Part shown: piece after piece, positions 1,759 to 19,284 of the stretch
Numbering within the stretch: position 1 is the stretch's first letter
Layout: every line of letters begins with the position of its first letter
From: a bacterium
GTDB taxonomy: Bacteria > Hinthialibacterota > Hinthialibacteria > OLB16
Direction of reading: 5' to 3'
Assembly: GCA_022072055.1 (NCBI GenBank)
Contig: JAJVIK010000002.1
Span: 231,615 to 295,614 of the forward strand
Length of the DNA stretch: 64,000 bases
Made by a program: the position numbers and the translations under genes
Notes under the pieces: generated by a model
The model's input: only the letters and a program-made list of their open reading frames with translations
Told to the model about the DNA's origin: nothing
Databases searched by the model: none

Positions 1759-3696
1759 ATGGGTTCCATGGGCAGACTTGAGGAAATCCTGGAAGAATAC
1801 CTGACCGCGTCCCCGGCAAGGAAAAGAGATTGTTTCAATCTTGCGGTCAAGGCCCTGAAGGCGGAGCTGGCGGCGGAACGATTTGAGGAGGCGGCGAGCG
1901 GCCTGGCAAGAATGGTCGCAGTGGACCTCGATTACCCCTCCGCACGGACCCTGATCGGCCTCCGCGAACGGCTCCAGGGGCGCGTGGACACGACCGGCCC
2001 CTCCGCGCGGCTCGCCATCCTGGGCGGGTTCACCACGACACAGCTTGCCTCCCTGATCGAGCTGTTCCTTTTCGCCGCCGGGGCGAAAGTGGAGATCCTG
2101 GAGTCGGAATATGGCATCTTCCGCCAGGATATCCTCGATCCGAATTCCCCGCTCTATCGCTTCCATCCCAATCTGGTCTACATCGCGGTGGGGCGTCACG
2201 ATCTAAGGACCCTCCCCTCGCTTGGAGAGGACGCCCAAGGCGCGCGAGAATGGATGGACACCGAGTTCTCTCAATGGGCCGGCTTGTGGGAGGTCCTGCA
2301 GGATCGCCTCGGATGCCAGATCATCCAGAACAACTTCGATCCTCCCCCCTGGAGAGTTCTGGGCAATTACGAGACCACTCACCCCTCCAGCCCAAGCCGA
2401 CTCATCCAGGATCTCAACCGCAAGCTCGCGGACGAGGCGCCGGCCCATGTGCTTGTGCATGATGTCGGCGAGCTGGCCGCCGCCGCTGGGCGCTGGGCTT
2501 GGGGAGACACCCGGTATTACTTCGAGGCCAAGCTCCCCTGCGCCCCGGAGTTGTTGGTCGATTACGCCCACAGTGTCGCCTCGCTGGTCCTGTCCCAACT
2601 GGGACTCGGGAAAAAATGCCTTGTGACCGATCTGGACAACACGCTGTGGGGCGGGGTGATCGGGGATGATGGGCTTGGGGGCATCCGACTCGGGCATGGG
2701 AGCGGCGAAGGGGAAGCCTATGTCGAGTTTCAGCGCCACCTGAAGGGGCTCCAGAGCCGCGGGGTGATCCTCGCGGTGTGCAGCAAGAACAGCGAGGAAT
2801 TGGCCCGCGAGCCGTTCGAGAAACACCCGGAGATGGCTCTCCGCCTGGAGGACATCTCCTGTTTTGTGGCCAATTGGGAGGACAAGGCCGCCAACTTGCG
2901 CGCCATCGCGCGGACCCTGGATATCGGGTTGAATTCGCTGGTGTTTGTCGATGACAATCCGATGGAGCGCGCGCTGGTCAGGCGGCTCGCCCCGGAAGTG
3001 GCCGTCCCGGAAATACCGGAGGATCCCGCCGGCTTTATCCGGGCGCTGGAGAAACACCGCTATTTCCAGGTGACCTCCCTGGCGGGCGAGGATTTCCGTC
3101 GGACGGATTTCTATCGCGCGAACGCCGAGCGGCGCGAGGCGGAGAGCGCGGCGGGCAGCTTGGACGAGTTTCTCGGCTCGTTGAGGATGACCGCGAAAGT
3201 CGCCCCGATCGACTCGACCAACCTGGAGCGCTGTGTCCAGCTGATCCAGCGCTCGAACCAGTTTAACCTGACCACTCGGCGGAGGGCCTCCGGCGAGGTG
3301 CTGGCCCTGGTCGAGGATTCGCGTTGGGTGACCGTCGCGGTCTCCCTGGCGGACCGCTTCGGGGACCATGGGCTGATTTCGGTGGTTCTGGCCCGCCTCG
3401 AAGGCGAGGTTTTCCGGATCGACACCTGGCTGATGAGCTGCCGCGTGTTGAAACGCGGGGTGGAGCGTTTTCTGCTCAATCATCTGGTGAGCGAGGCGGG
3501 GAAACGTGGGGCGGAAAAGCTGATCGGGGAATACATCCCCACCGCGAAGAATGGGCTGGTCCGGGATCATTACTCCGATCTGGGGTTCACCCGGATTGGC
3601 GAGGAACAGGATGGGAGCTCCCGGTGGGAGCTCGATATCACGGGGGGTTGGACGCCGCTTCCAACCCACATTGAGGAGATGCAAGCGAATGGATGA
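1759..3696 (+). CDS. FkbH-type HAD-IIIC phosphatase/acyltransferase with C-terminal GNAT-like domain
   Basis: About 645 residues. The N-terminal 270 residues resemble the SGNH-like region of FkbH family proteins. The HAD core has D291-L-D293-N-T-L-W-G-G, a conserved C-S-K-N element with C341, and the F-V-D-D-N-P motif (D398, D399, N400), followed by a GNAT-like C-terminal region containing the family block S-N-Q-F-N-L-T-T. Characterised FkbH proteins take 1,3-bisphosphoglycerate, dephosphorylate it and load glyceryl onto an acyl carrier protein. The next gene is an ACP whose start overlaps this stop by 8 bases, which strongly supports that chemistry. The start is uncertain: ATG 1759 is chosen over TTG 1726 and ATG 1768, and none has a good ribosome binding site. 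Confidence 0.9.
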   Translation: MGSMGRLEEILEEYLTASPARKRDCFNLAVKALKAELAAERFEEAASGLARMVAVDLDYPSARTLIGLRERLQGRVDTTGPSARLAILGGFTTTQLASLIELFLFAAGAKVEILESEYGIFRQDILDPNSPLYRFHPNLVYIAVGRHDLRTLPSLGEDAQGAREWMDTEFSQWAGLWEVLQDRLGCQIIQNNFDPPPWRVLGNYETTHPSSPSRLIQDLNRKLADEAPAHVLVHDVGELAAAAGRWAWGDTRYYFEAKLPCAPELLVDYAHSVASLVLSQLGLGKKCLVTDLDNTLWGGVIGDDGLGGIRLGHGSGEGEAYVEFQRHLKGLQSRGVILAVCSKNSEELAREPFEKHPEMALRLEDISCFVANWEDKAANLRAIARTLDIGLNSLVFVDDNPMERALVRRLAPEVAVPEIPEDPAGFIRALEKHRYFQVTSLAGEDFRRTDFYRANAERREAESAAGSLDEFLGSLRMTAKVAPIDSTNLERCVQLIQRSNQFNLTTRRRASGEVLALVEDSRWVTVAVSLADRFGDHGLISVVLARLEGEVFRIDTWLMSCRVLKRGVERFLLNHLVSEAGKRGAEKLIGEYIPTAKNGLVRDHYSDLGFTRIGEEQDGSSRWELDITGGWTPLPTHIEEMQANG

Positions 3697-3943
3697 ACTG
3701 CGCGCGCAGCTGCAGGAGGTGTTCCGCGAGGTATTCGATGATGAGGAGATCGCCCTCCGGGACGAGATGACCGGGAATGACATCGAGGGGTGGGATTCGC
3801 TCATGCATCTCAATCTGATTATCGCCGTGGAAAGCCGCTTTGGGGTCAAGTTCGCCACCTCCGAAATCTCCAACCTCCGCAATGATGGGGAGAATGTGGG
3901 CAGCATGGTGAGCCTTCTGGCCAAGAAACTGGGGCGCGGTTAG
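3689..3943 (+). CDS. Acyl carrier protein
   Basis: An 84-residue acidic, helical carrier protein. The phosphopantetheine site is the D-S-L motif in G-W-D-S-L-M-H (S37). The start is fixed by a GAGGAG ribosome binding site at 3673-3678 and by the 8-base overlap with the upstream FkbH-type gene. The next gene starts two bases after the stop. This is a stand-alone carrier next to FkbH, MBOAT and methyltransferase genes, not the fatty-acid ACP, whose usual fab neighbours are absent. It most likely carries the acyl unit formed by the FkbH-type protein. Confidence 0.9.
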   Translation: MDELRAQLQEVFREVFDDEEIALRDEMTGNDIEGWDSLMHLNLIIAVESRFGVKFATSEISNLRNDGENVGSMVSLLAKKLGRG

Positions 3944-7830: not shown

Positions 7831-8598
7831 ATGAAATGGATTCGCAAGCGCGTCTTGAGCGGGGAGCTTCTCTCCGGGACCTTCTTGAACCTGGGATCCG
7901 GCCTGACCGCCGAAATCGCGGGGCAGGCTGGGTTTGACCATGTGATCCTCGACCTGGAGCACGGTTCCGGGGACCAGGAGAGTTTGGTTGCCCAGCTCCA
8001 GGCGCTGGAGGCCACATCGGCGGCGGCCGTGGTCCGAGTGGCGTCCAACGAAGCGCCGCGTTTCAAGCGCGTCCTCGACCTGGGGCCGAGCGGAGTGATG
8101 GTCCCGATGGTGAACACGGCGGAAGAGGCGCGCCAAGCGGTGGCCGCGAGTCGCTACCCGCCCGAGGGAAACCGAGGCGTGGCCGGATGGAACCGCGCCT
8201 GCCGATTCGGGCCGGGTTTCGAGGAGTACTTCAAGGAAGCCAACCGGAACCTGCTGGTCGTGGTTCAGATCGAAACCCCCGAGGCCCTGGGAAACCTGGA
8301 CTCCATCGCAGAGGTCGAGGGTGTGGATGTCCTCTATGTGGGACCCACCGACTTGAGCGTCTCGCTCGGAATCCCGCGACAGTTCGAGCATCCCCACATG
8401 CAGGAAGCTTACGACAAGGTGGTGGCGTCGGCGCGCAAGCATGGGAAAACGGCGGGTATTCTCGCCCCCCGATATGAACTTCTTGAAGGGTTTATCGGCA
8501 GGGGCTTCACTTTTGTCAGCGTCTCCTCCGATGGCGCGGTGGTGGCCGAGGGGTTATACCGTCTGGCCGCTGGCTTTGCTCAGTTCCGGACCCGCTAG
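7831..8598 (+). CDS. HpcH/HpaI family class II aldolase
   Basis: 255 residues covering the whole family length. L-D-L-E-H-G (H44, the probable base), E148 in Q-I-E-T-P-E and D174 in G-P-T-D-L-S-V-S-L-G (metal ligands) are all present. Family members cleave 4-hydroxy-2-oxo acids such as 2-keto-3-deoxy-sugar acids to pyruvate or similar products plus an aldehyde. It begins a block of three small-molecule enzymes downstream of the acylation genes. It could serve sugar-acid catabolism or, less likely, supply a three-carbon unit. Confidence 0.88.
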   Translation: MKWIRKRVLSGELLSGTFLNLGSGLTAEIAGQAGFDHVILDLEHGSGDQESLVAQLQALEATSAAAVVRVASNEAPRFKRVLDLGPSGVMVPMVNTAEEARQAVAASRYPPEGNRGVAGWNRACRFGPGFEEYFKEANRNLLVVVQIETPEALGNLDSIAEVEGVDVLYVGPTDLSVSLGIPRQFEHPHMQEAYDKVVASARKHGKTAGILAPRYELLEGFIGRGFTFVSVSSDGAVVAEGLYRLAAGFAQFRTR

Positions 8599-8619: not shown

Positions 8620-9483
8620 ATGGCGAAATCGATCATCGTTGCCGGGGTTCAGATGGATGTCGCGCTGGGAAATCCGGAGGCGAACCACGCCAAGATCGAG
8701 GCGCGCCTGGCGGAGGCGGCTGGAATGGGAGCCGCGCTCGCGGTTTTCCCGGAGTGCGCGCTGGCGGGTTATTGTTTTGAATCCCTCGATGAGGCGCGGC
8801 CTTTCGCTGAAACGGTTCCCGGTCCCAGCACCTCACGTTGGTCAGAGACCTGTCGGAAGCTGAACCTCCATGCGGTTGTGGGGATGCTCGAGACGGATGG
8901 AGAGCGGCTCTTCAACGCCTGCGTTTTGGTCGGGCCGAAGGGTCTGGTCGGCGCTTACCGGAAGATTCACCTCCCCATGTTGGGGGTGGACCGCTTCACC
9001 ACCCCGGGAGATCGCCCCTTCGAGGTGTGGTCCATCGGGGCGGCGAGAGTGGGCATGCACATCTGCTACGATGGGGCCTTTCCCGAGGCCCCGCGCGCGC
9101 TCGCGCTCCTCGGCGCGGACCTGATAGTCCTCCCCACCAACTGGCCTCCGGGCACCGAGTGCACCGCGGGGCATGTTCCCAACACCCGCGCCCTCGAAAA
9201 CAATGTCTACTACATGGCGGTGAATCGGGTGGGCGTGGAGCGCGGTTTCACCTTCATCGGTTGCAGTAAGATCTGCGACACCGATGGTGGGGTGTTGGCC
9301 GAGGCGCCGCACGCGAGCGAGGAGATTCTCCATGCCGAAATCGATGTGGACCGCGCCCGGAACAAGCGCCTGGTTCGGGTCCCCGGTAAGCATGAAATCC
9401 ACCGTTTCGCGGACCGTCGCCCGGATATGTATGGACCGATTGTGAACCTCCCGATCCCACCCAGACAGGGGAGGTCGGAGTGA
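8620..9483 (+). CDS. Carbon-nitrogen hydrolase (nitrilase superfamily)
   Basis: 287 residues. The catalytic triad is intact: E45 in F-P-E-C-A-L-A-G-Y, K115 in Y-R-K-I-H-L-P and C149 in H-I-C-Y-D-G. Members hydrolyse amides, N-carbamoyl compounds or nitriles; the lack of nitrilase-specific features favours an amidase. The gene lies 21 bases after the aldolase gene and its stop TGA overlaps the next start in a TGATG arrangement. The neighbouring creatininase-family gene suggests joint action on a cyclic or linear amide. Confidence 0.88.
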   Translation: MAKSIIVAGVQMDVALGNPEANHAKIEARLAEAAGMGAALAVFPECALAGYCFESLDEARPFAETVPGPSTSRWSETCRKLNLHAVVGMLETDGERLFNACVLVGPKGLVGAYRKIHLPMLGVDRFTTPGDRPFEVWSIGAARVGMHICYDGAFPEAPRALALLGADLIVLPTNWPPGTECTAGHVPNTRALENNVYYMAVNRVGVERGFTFIGCSKICDTDGGVLAEAPHASEEILHAEIDVDRARNKRLVRVPGKHEIHRFADRRPDMYGPIVNLPIPPRQGRSE

Positions 9484-10274
9484 TGCTTTGGCAGGAACAG
9501 AGCTGGCCTCGGATCAGGGAGTTGGACAAGCGGATTCCGGTGGTGGTCCCGCTCGGCTCTTTGGAGCAGCACGGTCCCCACCTCCCGTTGATCGTGGACA
9601 CCCTCCAGGTGACCGCGATCGCCGAGGCGGCTGAGCGGCGGCTTGCGGACAGAGTCCTCCTACTCCCGACCCTCTGGCTTGGCTCTTCCCATCACCATCT
9701 CGACTTTCCGGGGACAGTGAGCCTGCTCCCCTCGTTGTACAGCCAGGTGATCGAGTCCATCGCGCTCTCGATCCTCCAGGCCGGGTTCCGAAGGGTTGTG
9801 TTCCTGAATGGGCATGGCGGCAACAAGGTCCCGGTCGCCCAAGCCCTTTCCGAGTTGGTGTGCGGAAGCGAGATAGCCGAGGATGCCTATTTGGCCCTTG
9901 CCACTTGGTGGGAGCTCAATCCGGAGGCTTTCCGCGTGGGGATGGAGACCCCCGCGGTGTCGCATTCGTGCGAGTATGAAACCTCGCTGGTGCTGGCGCT
10001 CAGACCTGACCTGGTCCGGATGGATCGCGCGCGGAAAACCCCCATGGCGCTCGACAACGAGTGGGTCAAAACAGAAAGCCCCCAGAGCAGCCGTGTCAGC
10101 ATCTATCGCCGGTTCCGGCGTCTCACCGCGCCAGGTTCGATGGGCAGCCCCCTCTCGGCCAGCGCGGAGAAGGGGAATCGGTTGCTCGCCGCCGTGGTCG
10201 AGGAGCTCGTTCGCTTCCTGACCGACTTCTTCCAGTGGCCCGAATTGCCCCCGCTGGGTCCCGACCTCGGTTAA
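9483..10274 (+). CDS. Creatininase family amidohydrolase
   Basis: 263 residues from ATG 9483, which overlaps the preceding TGA; GTG 9480 is possible. A GGGGAGG ribosome binding site precedes it. The family metal residues are visible: E28 and H30 in S-L-E-Q-H-G-P-H, D39 in I-V-D-T, H111 in N-G-H-G-G-N, and acidic E164/E166 in C-E-Y-E-T-S. The family includes creatininase, formamidase-type enzymes and MftE-like peptidases, so the substrate is undefined. The coupling with the nitrilase-like gene suggests consecutive amide-bond hydrolyses. Confidence 0.85.
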   Translation: MLWQEQSWPRIRELDKRIPVVVPLGSLEQHGPHLPLIVDTLQVTAIAEAAERRLADRVLLLPTLWLGSSHHHLDFPGTVSLLPSLYSQVIESIALSILQAGFRRVVFLNGHGGNKVPVAQALSELVCGSEIAEDAYLALATWWELNPEAFRVGMETPAVSHSCEYETSLVLALRPDLVRMDRARKTPMALDNEWVKTESPQSSRVSIYRRFRRLTAPGSMGSPLSASAEKGNRLLAAVVEELVRFLTDFFQWPELPPLGPDLG

Positions 10275-10284
10275 GTCCGTCGGC

Positions 10285-12174
10285 CTATTCCTCAAGTCCA
10301 AGCGAGCGCTTGCCGGCATCGGTCAACCGCGCCGCCGACCAGGCCGGCTCCCAGGTGAAACGAACCACCACTTGGGAGACTCCCGGAACCCTGAGGAGGC
10401 GCTCGCGTATCCCCTCGGTGTTCCTTCCACCGCCGCGGAAGACCAGATAGTCATACACCGGACGCCCCCGGTGGGGCATGGTCATCAACACCTCCGCCAC
10501 TCCGTTCCTCACCTTGAGGTCATAGACATAGCCCAGGTCCACGACATTCCCATCGATCCGATAGAGCTGCTCGTCGGTGACATCTCGGATGGCCTCCCAA
10601 AGAGCGTGCTTGAGAGCCCCCGTTTCCTCGGTCTCGCCATACCGGGCGAGCGACCCGACCTGGACGTGCTTCTTGAGATCCGGGGGCTCTCCCGGCGAGG
10701 CCACAAGAGGCGCGAGAAACCGCTTCCGAATCCCCTCGATCACCGGAGCGGCATCGCCTTGGGGGAAAGGCGCGACGAGATAGGCGTTTCGTTCCGACAA
10801 GACCGTGCCGGCATACCAATGGAGGTCGCCGCCCCCGATGGGTGAACGGCTCCAGAGCTGACCGTGCTGGTGGTAGTGAAGGATTGGGGGAGCATTGCGA
10901 GTGAGCGGCCCCGCCGGAGACAAGACATGGTCCAGCCACAGGCCGATGAAGGCGTCCCGACTTTCCGGGTGATGGAACCCGACTCCCCAAAGGTGTTCCC
11001 CTTCCTCGGCTGGGACCTCACCCTCTCTGAGTTTTCCAGCCCCATCGATCCAGACCTTTTCGGTGAAGGAATAGCCCGAGAGGACCCATTCATCATCGCG
11101 CATCGTGGTGAAATCGAAATCCTTGGCCGCTTCCATCTTGCCCTCTTTGAGGAAGTAATCCTTCCCGGCGTAAAACACATAAGTCTGGTCGATGTGCATC
11201 CGACTGGGGGTGAAGACCGGATGGATCGGGCTGTGGGGGAAACCCCAGTGACGGACCCGGACACACAGCGGGCCTCGGATCACCTCATAATTGGGGGGGC
11301 TGGCCCAGTTGCGGATGCGGAGCTTCTGGTAGTGGTCCTGGTCCACATAGTCGTTCGACCAGTCGATGGTCGGCGGCTCGCCATGCCCCTTTCCCCCGGC
11401 GTAGAGCTCAAGACCATGCTCGCGGCGGTACCGAACTCGCTCCAGTTGACCGGTTTGGTCCGAAAGGTCGGCGACAAAATGGTTGTTGGTCACCTCCACT
11501 CCGCATCCCTCTCCCGTCACGGTGAGGTCCGTGGCGTAGCACGGGAGTTCGGCCAGCGGATTTCCATGCAGGATCAGATAGGCGGCCTCGCCGCTCGCGG
11601 GAGCGTCGGCGAAAAAGACCAAACGGCAAATCCGGGAATCGCCGCGACGCACTTCACCGTAAATCTGGGAGGCGACTTCGCGGAGGGTTCCATCCTCCCC
11701 GTTGACCCGCGCCACCCGCGTCTCGCGTTGGAGATCGGTGGTCTCCGCGACAGGAAAGGCCACGATCAGGTCCACCGGCTCGGCGGCGCGCGCGATTCCG
11801 GCGGTCTCCTTGAGGGTGAGGGCCCGATAGGAGCTCCACCCCCGGGCCCACTCGGCCCATTCCGCCGGAAGGTCGGCGACCTTCGAGGACTTGGCCGCCG
11901 CAAGCAGCGGTGTCCCCGGATCCTCCCTGAGCTGCTCTTCAAACTGGAGGGTCTCCTTGAGGGATTCCGACAAAGACAGCGCGAGGTCAAACCGCCCCTT
12001 GCGGTAGGCCGCCTCGATCAGCTGGAGTTTCTCCTCAATCGTGTCCGTGCGCGCCTCGCGTCGGATTTCCGTGAGGAGCTCCTCGGCTTGGGCCGAACGG
12101 CCCGCCGACAGGACCAGCAGCGCTCCGAACATCGCGATCCCGATGAATGTCCCCCGATGACGCCATGTCCGCAT
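10285..12174 (-). CDS. Secreted protein, possibly glycan-lyase-like, with C-terminal DUF59/MIP18 domain
   Basis: About 629 residues from the ATG at 12174, which has a GGAGG ribosome binding site. A signal peptide (residues 1-30, ending near S-A-Q-A) leads into a helical stretch and a long beta-rich, aromatic-rich central region that resembles secreted polysaccharide-lyase-like proteins of this type of bacterium, without a certain family. Residues about 514-629 clearly follow the MIP18/DUF59 pattern of SufT and PaaD: V-V-D-L-G-Y-V-Y-D, V-L-M-T-M and F-T-W-E-P-A-W-S followed by S-L-G. The conserved cysteine after M-T is missing. A normally cytosolic iron-sulfur assembly domain on an exported protein is unusual. 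Confidence 0.75.
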   Translation of the reverse strand: MRTWRHRGTFIGIAMFGALLVLSAGRSAQAEELLTEIRREARTDTIEEKLQLIEAAYRKGRFDLALSLSESLKETLQFEEQLREDPGTPLLAAAKSSKVADLPAEWAEWARGWSSYRALTLKETAGIARAAEPVDLIVAFPVAETTDLQRETRVARVNGEDGTLREVASQIYGEVRRGDSRICRLVFFADAPASGEAAYLILHGNPLAELPCYATDLTVTGEGCGVEVTNNHFVADLSDQTGQLERVRYRREHGLELYAGGKGHGEPPTIDWSNDYVDQDHYQKLRIRNWASPPNYEVIRGPLCVRVRHWGFPHSPIHPVFTPSRMHIDQTYVFYAGKDYFLKEGKMEAAKDFDFTTMRDDEWVLSGYSFTEKVWIDGAGKLREGEVPAEEGEHLWGVGFHHPESRDAFIGLWLDHVLSPAGPLTRNAPPILHYHQHGQLWSRSPIGGGDLHWYAGTVLSERNAYLVAPFPQGDAAPVIEGIRKRFLAPLVASPGEPPDLKKHVQVGSLARYGETEETGALKHALWEAIRDVTDEQLYRIDGNVVDLGYVYDLKVRNGVAEVLMTMPHRGRPVYDYLVFRGGGRNTEGIRERLLRVPGVSQVVVRFTWEPAWSAARLTDAGKRSLGLEE

Positions 12175-12203
12175 CGTTCTTTCCTCCGACCTGGAAGTCT
12201 TCC

Positions 12204-12279: not shown

Positions 12280-13239
12280 ATGACCCACCGCATCAGCCGC
12301 CGCGAATGCCTCAAGACCCTGGCCGTTTCCTCCGCCGCGCTGCCGGCTTCAGCTCCATGGCCCGCCCTCGCGGGGGGGCCGCCCGGATCGTCTTCGGGTT
12401 ACATCGATGGGCATGTCCATGTCTGGTCCTCCGACACCATCCGATATCCCCTCGCGCCCGACCAGCGCAAGGAGCAGATGCGTCCGGCATCGTTCACCCC
12501 GGAGGATTTCTTCACGCACGCCGGCCGGTGCGGGGTTACTCGCGCCAACCTGATCCAGATGAGCTATTACGGCTTCGACAACTCGTACATGCTCGACATG
12601 ATCGCGGCGCATCCGGGCGCCTTTGTCGGAACCGCGATCGTGGACCCGTTCGGGCCGGACCTCGAGGGCGAAATGACCCGTCTGGCTGCGCGCGGGTGCC
12701 CGGCCTTTCGGATTCAGCCCGCGCACTCGAAACAGCCTCCGGAGAGTTGGCTGCGCCCCGAACCGATGGAGCGGATGTTCGCCATCGCCGCCAAGCATCG
12801 CCTCATCCTGTCCACGCTGATCCGCTGGGATGCCCTGCCGGAGCTGGAGCGGGTCTGCGGGAAACACCCGGACACGCAAGTGATCATCGACCACCTGTGC
12901 CTCCTGGCCACGGGCGACACCCAGCCGCCGACCGAGGAGCACATGAACCGCCTGGCCGTGATGGCCAAGCATCCGAGGGTGTTCCTCAAGGTCGGCGCGT
13001 TCTATGCCTTGGGGGAAAGAACACCCCCTTATCTGGACCTCCTACCCCTCATCCGGCGAATGGTCGAGGCTTTCACCCCCTCCAGGTGCTTGTGGGAGTC
13101 GGACTGCCCCTTTCAAGTGACCAACCATTCGTATGAGGACTCGATTGCGCTGATCCGCGATCATGCCGATTTCCTTTCGGCTTCCGACAAGGACCGGATC
13201 CTCCGAGGCACGGCGGAGAGTCTCTTCTTCCAACGGTAG
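12280..13239 (+). CDS. Tat-exported amidohydrolase (PF04909-like, TIM-barrel)
   Basis: 319 residues. An S-R-R-E-C-L-K twin-arginine motif at residues 6-12 and a following Ala-rich segment form a Tat signal. H45-V-H47 in D-G-H-V-H-V-W is the metal pair, and D275 in W-E-S-D-C-P-F is the likely catalytic aspartate, as in the amidohydrolase-2 family, which includes lactonases and decarboxylases. The probable substrate is a lactone or sugar-acid derivative. The gene converges with the Gfo/Idh/MocA gene only one base away and is divergent from the DUF59-fusion gene. Confidence 0.85.
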   Translation: MTHRISRRECLKTLAVSSAALPASAPWPALAGGPPGSSSGYIDGHVHVWSSDTIRYPLAPDQRKEQMRPASFTPEDFFTHAGRCGVTRANLIQMSYYGFDNSYMLDMIAAHPGAFVGTAIVDPFGPDLEGEMTRLAARGCPAFRIQPAHSKQPPESWLRPEPMERMFAIAAKHRLILSTLIRWDALPELERVCGKHPDTQVIIDHLCLLATGDTQPPTEEHMNRLAVMAKHPRVFLKVGAFYALGERTPPYLDLLPLIRRMVEAFTPSRCLWESDCPFQVTNHSYEDSIALIRDHADFLSASDKDRILRGTAESLFFQR

Positions 13240-13240
13240 C

Positions 13241-14593
13241 TCACGACAGATACCCATCCGGGAATCTCCACGGCTTCCGGTAGATGGGTCGAACCAACTT
13301 CTGGGCTTCCGGGTCGTTCGGGATGGTCTCGGTGACCGGATCGAACGCCACCGACCTCCCCAGCTTGAGTGAGACTAGCGAGAGCTGGATCGCCACATCA
13401 ATCTTGTAGTGGTAGCCGACATGGCAACTGGGCTGCTTGCGGCTCCGCAGGCAGTCCAGCCATTCCCGATAATGGCCGGGGGAGTTGGGCACGCTTTCCG
13501 GCACTCCGGCGGAGTCGATGGCCAAACCGAGCTCCGGAACAATGTCGTGGGAGCTGTAATCGGTCACCAGGGTTGCGTTCACACCCTGAAAAACAATCGC
13601 CAGGGTCCGCCGAGTCCCCTCCGGACCGGGGAGGCTGTAGCCGCACGCGTTCACAATCGAGCTGCTCCAGGTGAGAGTGAAGTTGGGATACTGGAACAAC
13701 ACCTCGTGAGTGTCGTAGGCATCACCCGGATCCTGGATGATGTACCGCCCGCCGGAAGAGCTGACCCGGATCGGATGGTCCAAGTTGAGCGCCCAGTAGG
13801 GGAGGTCGAGGATGTGGGGCGCCATGCCGGGAGTCCAGCCCCCGCTGTAGTCCATGAAGGACCCGTGCTCGTAGGCGCCCTTGGCAATCAGCGGATTGAA
13901 CGCGCGCAGCTTGGCCGGGCCGCACCACTGGTTCCAATCCAGGTCTCGCGGGGGATCGCAATCGGCCATCTCTCCCAGTCCATCGGGGCCTTGGTTTCCC
14001 ACATGGACGGTCCGGATCACCCCGATCTTTCCCAGAATTCCCGAGCGCACGATCTCCACCACCCTGCGGTAGTTGTCCCCCGCGTGAATTTGAGTCCCGA
14101 TCTGGGTGATCCGGTTGTGGTGACGAACCGCGTTGCGGACCGCAAGACTCTCGCCCACAGACATGGTCATCGGCTTTTCGATGTAGAAGTCCTTTCCGGA
14201 CTCGCAGGCGTGAATGGCCTGCAGGCAGTGCCAATGGGGTGGGGTGCAGATCACCACCGCGTCCACATCCTTCCGCGAGAGCAGGTCGCGATAGTCCTTG
14301 ATCTCGGAGGGTTTGTTGGGGCACTTCTCGACTGCCTGGCGGATGTGGTCCCCCCACACATCGCAGATCGCGGTCACCTCGACATCCGGCTGTTTGAGGA
14401 ATTCCTCCAGAACCTGAAGCCCGCGCGCCCCGACCCCGATGAAGCCGAGTCGGATGCGTTCGTTGGGGCTGGTGGAGGGAGTCTCCTCGGACCAAGCGGC
14501 CCGAGGCAGACCCGTCGCCGCCACCCCGGCCGCTCCCAGGCGGGCGCTCAATTCCAGAAACTCCCGGCGCGAAAGATGGTCATTAGCGTGCAT
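13241..14593 (-). CDS. Tat-exported Gfo/Idh/MocA family oxidoreductase
   Basis: 450 residues with a Tat signal (L-S-R-R-E-F-L, residues 7-13). The NAD(P)-binding segment reads R-L-G-F-I-G-V-G-A-R-G, and the family catalytic-loop motif is I-E-K-P-M-T-M-S. The C-terminal region resembles the GH109-like and planctomycete-expanded branches of the family. It may oxidise a sugar or act as an NAD-dependent glycosidase. It is the last gene of a five-gene minus-strand operon; its start overlaps the symporter stop by 11 bases, and a GGAGG lies 8 bases upstream. Confidence 0.88.
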   Translation of the reverse strand: MHANDHLSRREFLELSARLGAAGVAATGLPRAAWSEETPSTSPNERIRLGFIGVGARGLQVLEEFLKQPDVEVTAICDVWGDHIRQAVEKCPNKPSEIKDYRDLLSRKDVDAVVICTPPHWHCLQAIHACESGKDFYIEKPMTMSVGESLAVRNAVRHHNRITQIGTQIHAGDNYRRVVEIVRSGILGKIGVIRTVHVGNQGPDGLGEMADCDPPRDLDWNQWCGPAKLRAFNPLIAKGAYEHGSFMDYSGGWTPGMAPHILDLPYWALNLDHPIRVSSSGGRYIIQDPGDAYDTHEVLFQYPNFTLTWSSSIVNACGYSLPGPEGTRRTLAIVFQGVNATLVTDYSSHDIVPELGLAIDSAGVPESVPNSPGHYREWLDCLRSRKQPSCHVGYHYKIDVAIQLSLVSLKLGRSVAFDPVTETIPNDPEAQKLVRPIYRKPWRFPDGYLS

Positions 14594-16662: not shown

Positions 16663-19284
16663 CTACTGAGTCGCCTCCATTCCGAGATGAAAGGCCTCTT
16701 TGTGGGGGGCGCCCACCTCGGCATAGTGGGTGATTTGCTCCCGTTCCGCGATTTCACACAGGCGCGCGTAGGTTCCGTCTCGCTTGGCCTCCATCGGCGA
16801 GCGTCTGCACTTGAGGTACATCACCGGGAAACGGGCCGTTTCCACTCGCCGGCGCACCTCCTCGCTGTCGGCCACCCGTTCGGCCTCGTCAAAGATGGCC
16901 TCCGCCCGGCGTATGAAGTCGTCCGAATAGATCTTGTCGTCCGGCTCCACCCGGATGTGGATGTGGGTCTCCGGGGTGATCCGCCCGTGCAGCAGGTCGA
17001 AGTACTGACGGACATACTGGCCGCTCCGACCGTAATAGCCGAACATGAAGTCCTGAATCACGCTTTCCACGTCACACTCCGGGTCCCACAGCAGCTTCGA
17101 GAGGACATAAGCCCGAAGTTCGGCGAACTCGCCGCCGCGGCTCTGATAGGCCGCCTGCTCCATGATCCCGATGGCATTGTGGTCGCGAAAGGTCCGAATG
17201 TTGGATTGAAGCACCTTAAAGTTCGGATGCGGAAGGACATAGTGGCTGAAGTTGACCACGTAATCCCAAATATAGAGTTGCGGGGCGATCTCCGCCCACC
17301 CCTGGAGGTCCGCCAGGAACGAAGCGTTTTCCTCGCAACTCTTGAAATCATGCGCGAAGCAGCATTCGATGCTGCATAGTCGGATCACCACGTTCTTTCT
17401 CGGGCGCAGGGTTTTGCAGGGTTTGCGGGTGTACTGATAGGCCAGGGTCCCGATGTACTTGTCCGGAAACTCCTTCTCCACCGCCTCGGCCACCTGATTG
17501 ACAAAATTAATGACCGGCCCGGATTCGCTTTCCTCCCGTTTGGCGATGGCTTGGCAGCGGTCGCACTCGCAGGGGCCTTGCCAGTCGTTCTGGGAAACGG
17601 AGTAGATCAAGTACCCGGGGTTCTCGCGCATCACCGTCCCGAGGCGCTCGGTGAGGAGGCGGAGGACATCCGGGTTGGTGAGGCAGAGCTGCGCGTGGTC
17701 ATACGTCCGCTTGCCGTCAATCAGGCTGTAATACTCCGGATGTTCCGCGAAGAACTCCTCCGGCGGCAGCAGCGGAAAGAAGGTGTGGACCGACCAATAG
17801 GCCTCGACCCCGCCCGGTTGGTCCCGATCCCACATGGCTCCGTTGACCCGGTTCCGCGCCGCCCAGGTCGGGTCGAAGGCCTCAAAATAGAAATCGTTCC
17901 GCACCCGGATTCCCGGAGACTCGCGACGATGGAGGGTTTCAAAGGAGACTCGCTCGCGCTTGGGGACCACGCTCACCCTGGGGGTGTACCAGCGACACCC
18001 CAGCTCGCGCTCCAGGAAGGCCATCACCCCGTACATCGTCCCCCGGTCTCGACCACCGCGAATCAGGATGGTGGGGCCCGCGTTGTGGTATTCAAAGATC
18101 TCATCCGCATGCCGGAAGCGTGTGTCCTCGGATCCCAGCAGGGCCTCGGTGTGACGATTGTCCCCCAGAATGATCTCGCGCTCGGTGGCCGGCTCGCTGT
18201 CGCCCCGAATCGGGAAATCGGCCCCGCCGGATTCCGCTAGCCAGTGGCGCAGTTCGCTCGCCGCCCATTTCTCGGATTCCGAGGCGTTCTCGCCGATGAC
18301 GATTGAGTAATCGGTCTTGCCGTCCGCAAACAAGGTATGAACAACCCGCTTCCCGGCCACGAAACGGATGTCCGTCTCCCACTCGCCTCCCGCCTTCTTC
18401 TCTCCGACGACCTTGGCCACATAGCGACCATAGTCCGTGGGGTCAATTCCGAGGTCCATCTCCGCCTCCTTGTTCCACTCCAGCCGGCGAATCACCTTGT
18501 TGGGGTTGCCCTCGCGAGTCACCGACACGTTCACGGACTTCAGCACCTCCGGCGCCAGCCATGCGGGTTGCTCCAGGCGCAAGAACGCTGTCCCATCTTC
18601 CCGCGAGATCACGTTAAACAGCGGAAATCGATCCGCGAAGGAACCGGCCTCAAACGGCAGCAGGCGCATGCAGAAGCCCCACTTGTTGCCACGCTCCTCC
18701 ACCTTGAGCAGCACGCGATTCTTCCCCGAAAGCAATCGCACCGGAACGATCTCGTCATCGGCGCTCAGGCTCCGACCCGAGGGATAATCCCCGATTTGCT
18801 CACCGTTCAACCACAGCCGGTAACCGTCGTTGGTCCCGAGCGAGAGCAGACAGACCTGGTCATTCGAGGATTCGATTTCACAGTATCCGTAGGCGGTCGC
18901 CGGGCTTCGTGTCGAAATGGCCGAGTCGAGGTCGATGATATGGTCCGCGGAGTGGTGACGAACCCACTCCACCACGGTCCCGTCATGGGAAACCTTCCCG
19001 CCTTCGTTGACCGTGGGATGGGCTTCGCCGCCGATGCTCGCGAGGAAATCGGTCTCGAAGCCAACCAGGTGGCGGACCTCCGGGTCATTCGGGGGAGGCG
19101 TTTCGAGAGGGAAAGGGCCGCACAGTAGCCAATCTTGAAAGAATTGAGAGGAGGGTTCGGACCGATAGATGGGGATTTCACCAAGGGAAGGTCCGATCCA
19201 AAGCGCTCCCACAAGGACAAGGAATGCCACTCGTAGGAGCTGCCTGGCTTGTTGAGAACACTCGAAACTGTCTTTGCGAATCAT
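16663..19284 (-). CDS. Secreted DUF4838 (GH67-related) glycoside hydrolase-like protein
   Basis: 873 residues. The signal peptide covers about residues 1-36. The N-terminal half contains beta-sandwich regions and an alpha-glucuronidase-like N-domain (S-I-V-I-G-E-N-A-S-E-S-E-K-W-A-A). The TIM-barrel part holds the DUF4838 signature C572-E-C574-D-R-C577, S-Q-N-D-W and L-Y-I-W-D-Y. DUF4838 proteins are common in lineages that degrade complex glycans, and the related GH67 enzymes remove glucuronic acid. The exact substrate is unknown. A GGAGG ribosome binding site lies 8 bases before the ATG. Confidence 0.85.
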   Translation of the reverse strand: MIRKDSFECSQQARQLLRVAFLVLVGALWIGPSLGEIPIYRSEPSSQFFQDWLLCGPFPLETPPPNDPEVRHLVGFETDFLASIGGEAHPTVNEGGKVSHDGTVVEWVRHHSADHIIDLDSAISTRSPATAYGYCEIESSNDQVCLLSLGTNDGYRLWLNGEQIGDYPSGRSLSADDEIVPVRLLSGKNRVLLKVEERGNKWGFCMRLLPFEAGSFADRFPLFNVISREDGTAFLRLEQPAWLAPEVLKSVNVSVTREGNPNKVIRRLEWNKEAEMDLGIDPTDYGRYVAKVVGEKKAGGEWETDIRFVAGKRVVHTLFADGKTDYSIVIGENASESEKWAASELRHWLAESGGADFPIRGDSEPATEREIILGDNRHTEALLGSEDTRFRHADEIFEYHNAGPTILIRGGRDRGTMYGVMAFLERELGCRWYTPRVSVVPKRERVSFETLHRRESPGIRVRNDFYFEAFDPTWAARNRVNGAMWDRDQPGGVEAYWSVHTFFPLLPPEEFFAEHPEYYSLIDGKRTYDHAQLCLTNPDVLRLLTERLGTVMRENPGYLIYSVSQNDWQGPCECDRCQAIAKREESESGPVINFVNQVAEAVEKEFPDKYIGTLAYQYTRKPCKTLRPRKNVVIRLCSIECCFAHDFKSCEENASFLADLQGWAEIAPQLYIWDYVVNFSHYVLPHPNFKVLQSNIRTFRDHNAIGIMEQAAYQSRGGEFAELRAYVLSKLLWDPECDVESVIQDFMFGYYGRSGQYVRQYFDLLHGRITPETHIHIRVEPDDKIYSDDFIRRAEAIFDEAERVADSEEVRRRVETARFPVMYLKCRRSPMEAKRDGTYARLCEIAEREQITHYAEVGAPHKEAFHLGMEATQ

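Follow-up and report, generated by a model that had tools for sequence, protein, structure and literature searches.

We found that the C-terminal DUF59 domain of a protein encoded in the 64,000-nucleotide stretch analysed here (the window; contig JAJVIK010000002.1, OLB16 lineage, Hinthialibacterota) differs from its iron-sulfur (Fe-S) relatives in precisely the motifs that define them. The explanation that we consider best, and rather probable, is that this protein belongs to a multi-phylum, probably carbohydrate-processing family in which a PL26-like body is joined to a DUF59 domain released from Fe-S assembly, the window member being exported. The gene runs on the minus strand from an ATG at 12174 to a stop at 10285, and its features are as follows.

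12182 to 12187, minus strand: ribosome-binding site GGAGGA, shortly upstream of the ATG at 12174 (read from the sequence).
10285 to 12174, minus strand: whole gene, P0001, a 629-residue preprotein (open frame; orthologues 48-61% identical from end to end).
12085 to 12174, minus strand: putative Sec-type signal peptide, residues 1-30, AQA/EE cleavage (read from the sequence; hydrophobic peak 2.68).
11920 to 12054, minus strand: helical segment, residues 41-85 (RTDxxEEKLxLLxxAYxxGxxxLALSLAESIKDTL), subfamily-specific.
10681 to 11868, minus strand: body, residues 103-498, combining a beta-barrel with a galactose-mutarotase-like supersandwich, as do the first two PL26 domains (predicted fold).
10288 to 10626, minus strand: DUF59/MIP18 domain, residues 517-629 (Pfam, NCBIfam, PDB match, predicted fold, alignment and tree).
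10567 to 10575, minus strand: position of the lost DPE motif, occupied by D534-E535-Q536 and then by additional residues (alignment).
10459 to 10476, minus strand: PHRGRP loop, P567-H-R-G-R-P572, with R571 in the reactive-cysteine column (alignment).
10420 to 10443, minus strand: Gly-rich insertion VFRGGGRN, residues 578-585 (alignment).

An earlier note on this DNA had assigned the last 116 residues to the SufT/PaaD/MIP18 domain, and the searches bore this out. When those residues (10285-10635, minus strand) were compared alone with PF01883, they scored just above the cutoff (E=5.3e-5, 23.8 bits, cutoff 23.5); the whole open reading frame scored 20.1 bits, under the cutoff, and two orthologues without signal peptides exceeded it over their full length (31.9 and 38.0 bits). 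NCBIfam models of the PaaD/SufT type matched the C-terminus at 2.5e-14 (PaaD) and 5e-11, with the equivalog cutoffs missed by far (53.4 versus 180 bits and 26.4 versus 108 bits), and PDB entry 2cu6, a DUF59 protein of Thermus, matched residues 562-664 of the open reading frame (667 residues) at 1e-10. Structure prediction, with models that rest on six sequences, placed a MIP18 fold at the C-terminus (Z 12.9 to DUF59 entry 3cq2_B, 2.2 Å over 97 residues), and the domain start was corrected to near residue 517. The fused domain thus shares with PaaD/SufT/MIP18 proteins (PF01883) the fold and the overall sequence along its final 115 residues, the LG-x-x-Y and W-x-P-x-W stretches among them, but differs from them in being joined to a large beta-rich body and, in the window protein, probably exported. 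A frame error or gene-fusion artefact was excluded because homologues from many genomes have the identical layout.

The conserved motif published for DUF59 domains is DPE-X26-31-T-X2/3-C, in which the cysteine is required for partner binding (PMC9045647), and this cysteine was present in every one of 761 SufT homologues surveyed (PMC4982691). The motif is missing in the window domain, where D534-E535-Q536 and R571 stand in its place; the cysteine had already been reported as gone, and we find the same for DPE, the motif's other half. In our alignment the reactive-cysteine column held Cys in 41/41 standalone domains, Arg in 43/43 C-terminally fused domains and His in the single N-terminally fused one; DPE or DPD occurred in 41/41 standalone domains and in 0 fused ones. 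Relative to PaaD/SufT/MIP18, therefore, DPE is replaced by D-[DEA]-[QM] and the T-x-C cysteine by P-H-x-G-R-P. The P-H-x-G-R-P run is invariant in subfamily A, as are His568 and Asp546, and the Asp534 position is Asp or Glu throughout that subfamily; subfamily B has P-Y-A-G-R, so that His568 is there Tyr, and it is Asn in L092. The VFRGGGRN insertion is common to a clade that includes non-exported members. We concluded that the fused DUF59 is remodelled, not decayed. The divergent second subfamily (L080, L081, L083-L085, L089-L091 and L094), with MPYAGRE instead of MPHRGRP, is without the N-terminal helical segment, and some of its members adjoin a conserved 458-residue gene with no Pfam match (seen on L081). 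Fusions of DUF59 with PaaJ, P-loop NTPase, DUF1858, PqqD, U-type scaffold, Rieske and CysE modules have been surveyed (PMC4982691); they resemble the present one in combining DUF59 with another module, but no carbohydrate-enzyme fold is among those modules and the cysteine kept there is lost here. Our own literature search on secreted or fused DUF59/MIP18 proteins found nothing relevant.

Homologues of the fusion, about 40 in all, were found in genomes of Latescibacterota, Poribacteria, Planctomycetota and Armatimonadota. The first contig scan returned one fragment and five full-length relatives, the latter sharing 48-61% of their residues with the window protein along the entire chain. Genome-wide matches (below 1e-40 or 1e-50) occurred in 20/64 genomes of the phylum of L005, 4/84 of the phylum of L007 (Poribacteria), 7/392 of the phylum of L004 (Planctomycetota) and 3/251 of the phylum of L009 (Armatimonadota). 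Transfer of the gene from one phylum to another is possible, since the window genome alone among 14 genomes of its own phylum has the full fusion. In a 77-row tree of DUF59 domains all fused domains (n=41) were set apart by a single branch supported at 100/98, a value obtained from a small data set (111 columns) and to which the shared motif changes contribute; DUF59 was captured once by this family. Mean identity between members was 0.54 in the DUF59 domain and 0.545 in the body, with a median DUF59/body ratio of 0.997. In L092 (G118:C166) the order is reversed relative to all other members, DUF59 (residues 10-111) preceding the body (117-568). Because the domain was kept after being moved and evolves no faster than the body, it is unlikely to be a relic.

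A domain with such clear homology to the SufT/PaaD families could still be a SufT/PaaD-like Fe-S or metal assembly factor, and a class-V aminotransferase gene lies 9 bp downstream of the fused gene in two closely related loci. Against this, the DPE and cysteine motif is missing in all fused copies, and the cysteine is the residue needed for SufT interactions (PMC9045647). The window genome, which is 96.6% complete, yielded no match to SufB/D (PF01458) and only one match to PF01883, the fused domain itself; a Pfam scan of representatives recognised no suf genes among the neighbours; and no cysteine of the desulfurase type is seen toward the C-terminus of the class-V aminotransferase. We rejected an Fe-S role because the motifs are lost and SufB/D is missing, and we give it very little chance. 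As the window genome has an IscU/NifU-type scaffold and no SufB/D, and as each of the six genomes from the first scan also encodes a separate, unfused DUF59 protein that keeps its cysteine (L063-L068), gene content indicates that the ordinary DUF59 function is met elsewhere or is dispensable. The aminotransferase genes at 9 bp from the fused gene are L128:5876-7003 and its counterpart in L129. The class-V aminotransferase beside L086/L072 was considered as a cysteine desulfurase and dismissed, its NCBIfam scores falling far below the cutoffs and no desulfurase-type cysteine being visible by eye in the C-terminal part.

Even at E-values as high as 10 the body matched no Pfam family, and it gave no NCBIfam family and no PDB sequence match. 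Folded alone it reached a pTM of 0.81 and a mean pLDDT of 72, and the earlier description of it as beta-rich and lyase-like agrees with its predicted fold, that of the first two PL26 domains: the best structural match was the PL26 exo-rhamnogalacturonan lyase 5xqg_F (Z 16.5, 333 aligned residues, 3.8 Å), tied within one unit with the Schizosaccharomyces pombe GH38 mannosidase Ams1. In comparison with the PL26 enzyme PcRGLX (5xqg, 5xqo), the predicted fold of residues 111-498 corresponds to that of PcRGLX 23-510, but identity is about 9% with no sequence-profile match, and the C-terminal alpha/alpha-barrel domain is missing, the chain running instead into DUF59. The supersandwich domains of galactose mutarotase and the GH38 mannosidase have the same predicted fold at about 10% identity, with no catalytic residues demonstrated in common, and likeness of fold is not function. 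Residues E151, R153, Q170, W290, R359, E362, W375 and R443 are conserved with or without DUF59, and H264, D275, R286 and D361 in those proteins that carry DUF59. A match of one paralogue to the YidC N-terminal domain (E=0.043) was set aside as reflecting the shared supersandwich fold only. The window genome also encodes two body-only paralogues without DUF59 (L002:1078-2826 and L003:388-2616), which have signal-peptide-like N-termini and gave no Pfam or NCBIfam family.

Genes near the fusion point to the kind of substrate that the body might recognise. In the window the nearest of these are as follows.

7831 to 8598, plus strand: HpcH/HpaI aldolase, closest to 2-dehydro-3-deoxyglucarate aldolase (profile match).
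9480 to 10274, plus strand: creatininase-family amidohydrolase, convergent neighbour (Pfam).
12280 to 13239, plus strand: Amidohydro_2 protein, lactonase-like, divergent neighbour, Tat-type signal RISRRECLK (Pfam).
13241 to 14593, minus strand: Gfo/Idh/MocA oxidoreductase, Tat-type signal HLSRREFLE (Pfam).

A nitrilase-family protein and a sodium-solute symporter are also present, and by their family assignments the window neighbours appear to be largely genes of sugar-acid catabolism. In L146 and L140, too, an Amidohydro_2 gene adjoins the fusion, there without a signal peptide, and a creatininase-family protein is near the fusion in L133. Neighbouring genes differ from locus to locus; the repeated clusters were PhyH (10 loci), Gfo/Idh (8), SDR (7) and enolase-superfamily dehydratases (6 and 5), followed by the rarer UxuA-like mannonate dehydratase (3) and Amidohydro_2 (3), counts that overstate independence because many of the loci come from related genomes. 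Since dehydratases of sugar acids, Gfo/Idh oxidoreductases and lactonase-like amidohydrolases occur at these loci, joined in the window by an aldolase of the keto-deoxy-sugar-acid type, we infer that the body would bind and act on a sugar, probably an acidic one. Two further genes were observed at these loci. In L007 a weak GH88-like gene (2558-3931, below the Pfam cutoff) lies 13 bp upstream of the fused gene and is possibly a separate alpha/alpha-barrel partner, and at 16663-19284 of the window, in the same stretch of sugar-related genes, is an 873-residue protein with DUF4838 (1.4e-106).

The signal peptide already described for the window protein is a plausible one of the Sec type, MRTWRHR-GTFIGIAMFGALLVLSAG-RSAQA|EE, and the next in-frame Met is residue 15, within the hydrophobic stretch. 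We consider the protein very probably exported, and so extracytoplasmic, in the window lineage. Signal peptides in all members were assessed by eye and by hydropathy, and a clear one was missing in 35/40 tree members, a majority that would favor a cytosolic window protein whose signal peptide is unused. However, the window ATG has a good ribosome-binding site, the peptide ends in an AxA cleavage site, the signal is common to the window protein, L004 and L071, which form one supported clade, and the adjoining genes carry Tat-type signals; a cytosolic location is accordingly hard to credit. Tat-type N-termini on an Amidohydro_2 protein and a Gfo/Idh oxidoreductase, members of families that are often cytosolic, suggest that the pathway may be extracytoplasmic.

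When N-termini were read across the family, exported fusions were recovered (L004, L071, L118 and L119, besides the window protein); L005-L008, by comparison, start with MAET or MTSE immediately before the RTD motif, and genome G127 has one exported paralogue and one non-exported (L071, L086). Signal peptides also occur in more distant relatives that consist of the body without DUF59, L002 among them. On the tree of 40 rows the signal-bearing proteins require at least two changes of export state, so that fused proteins acquired export on two or more occasions; a possible signal peptide from a GTG start in L087 was scored as none, and the gains still do not fall below two. As the Cys-to-Arg change is common to non-exported members, reuse of DUF59 most likely preceded export. 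The earlier proposal of an extracytoplasmic reuse of the domain thus holds in part: reuse outside Fe-S assembly is likely, but the fusion is not tied to export.

In the sequence of events that we propose, the DUF59 domain, captured once and with its cysteine turned into Arg and its DPE lost in every C-terminally fused copy, would have given up its Fe-S duties and become part of a carbohydrate-processing protein. The Arg/His loop MPHRGRP, which lies in a poorly predicted region (pLDDT <50 in the model), would then help to hold in place the substrate or the assembly at the active site, with a cationic pocket where the thiol one had been, and the body would act on a sugar or sugar acid with the remodelled loop working alongside it. 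In the window lineage this sugar-processing reaction would occur outside the cytoplasm; two adjacent enzymes likewise carry Tat-type signals. Only tentatively do we extend this to a DUF59 that is itself a working part of a carbohydrate enzyme family, binding acid sugars or taking part in catalysis, with Arg standing where the reactive Cys was, and extracytoplasmic in several lineages. DUF59 might instead be a dimerisation or scaffold module only, with PHRGRP making a subunit or interdomain contact and touching no substrate. M. tuberculosis SufT homodimerises (PMC9045647), the domain is tolerated at either end of the body (L092), and a conserved interface would explain equally well why DUF59 is conserved as much as the body; the invariant P-H-x-G-R-P, however, lies exactly at the former reactive pocket, and therefore continued use of that pocket is suggested. 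We regard a purely structural role as possible but rather unlikely. A new non-Fe-S site, in which His568, Asp534 and Asp546 bind a divalent metal outside the cytoplasm, would accord with the conservation of these three positions in subfamily A, but not with the Tyr and Asn that replace His568 elsewhere, nor with the non-export of most members, and the invariant pocket Arg favors an anion ligand. The analysis found no evidence of metal binding, a role that the earlier note had suggested for the domain, and we consider such a site quite improbable.

The name DUF59 has come to stand almost entirely for Fe-S assembly, and fused proteins of this sort are likely to be labelled as Fe-S factors by automatic annotation. 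If the explanation that we favor, a DUF59 domain released into a carbohydrate-processing family, is correct, a clade in which the Fe-S motifs are replaced and constraint equals that on the body would show the DUF59 fold in another job, and the fused clade would serve as a natural control for the roles of the cysteine and of DPE. Beyond this, these results indicate an uncharacterised PL26-like family, as yet without a Pfam model, in several little-cultured phyla.
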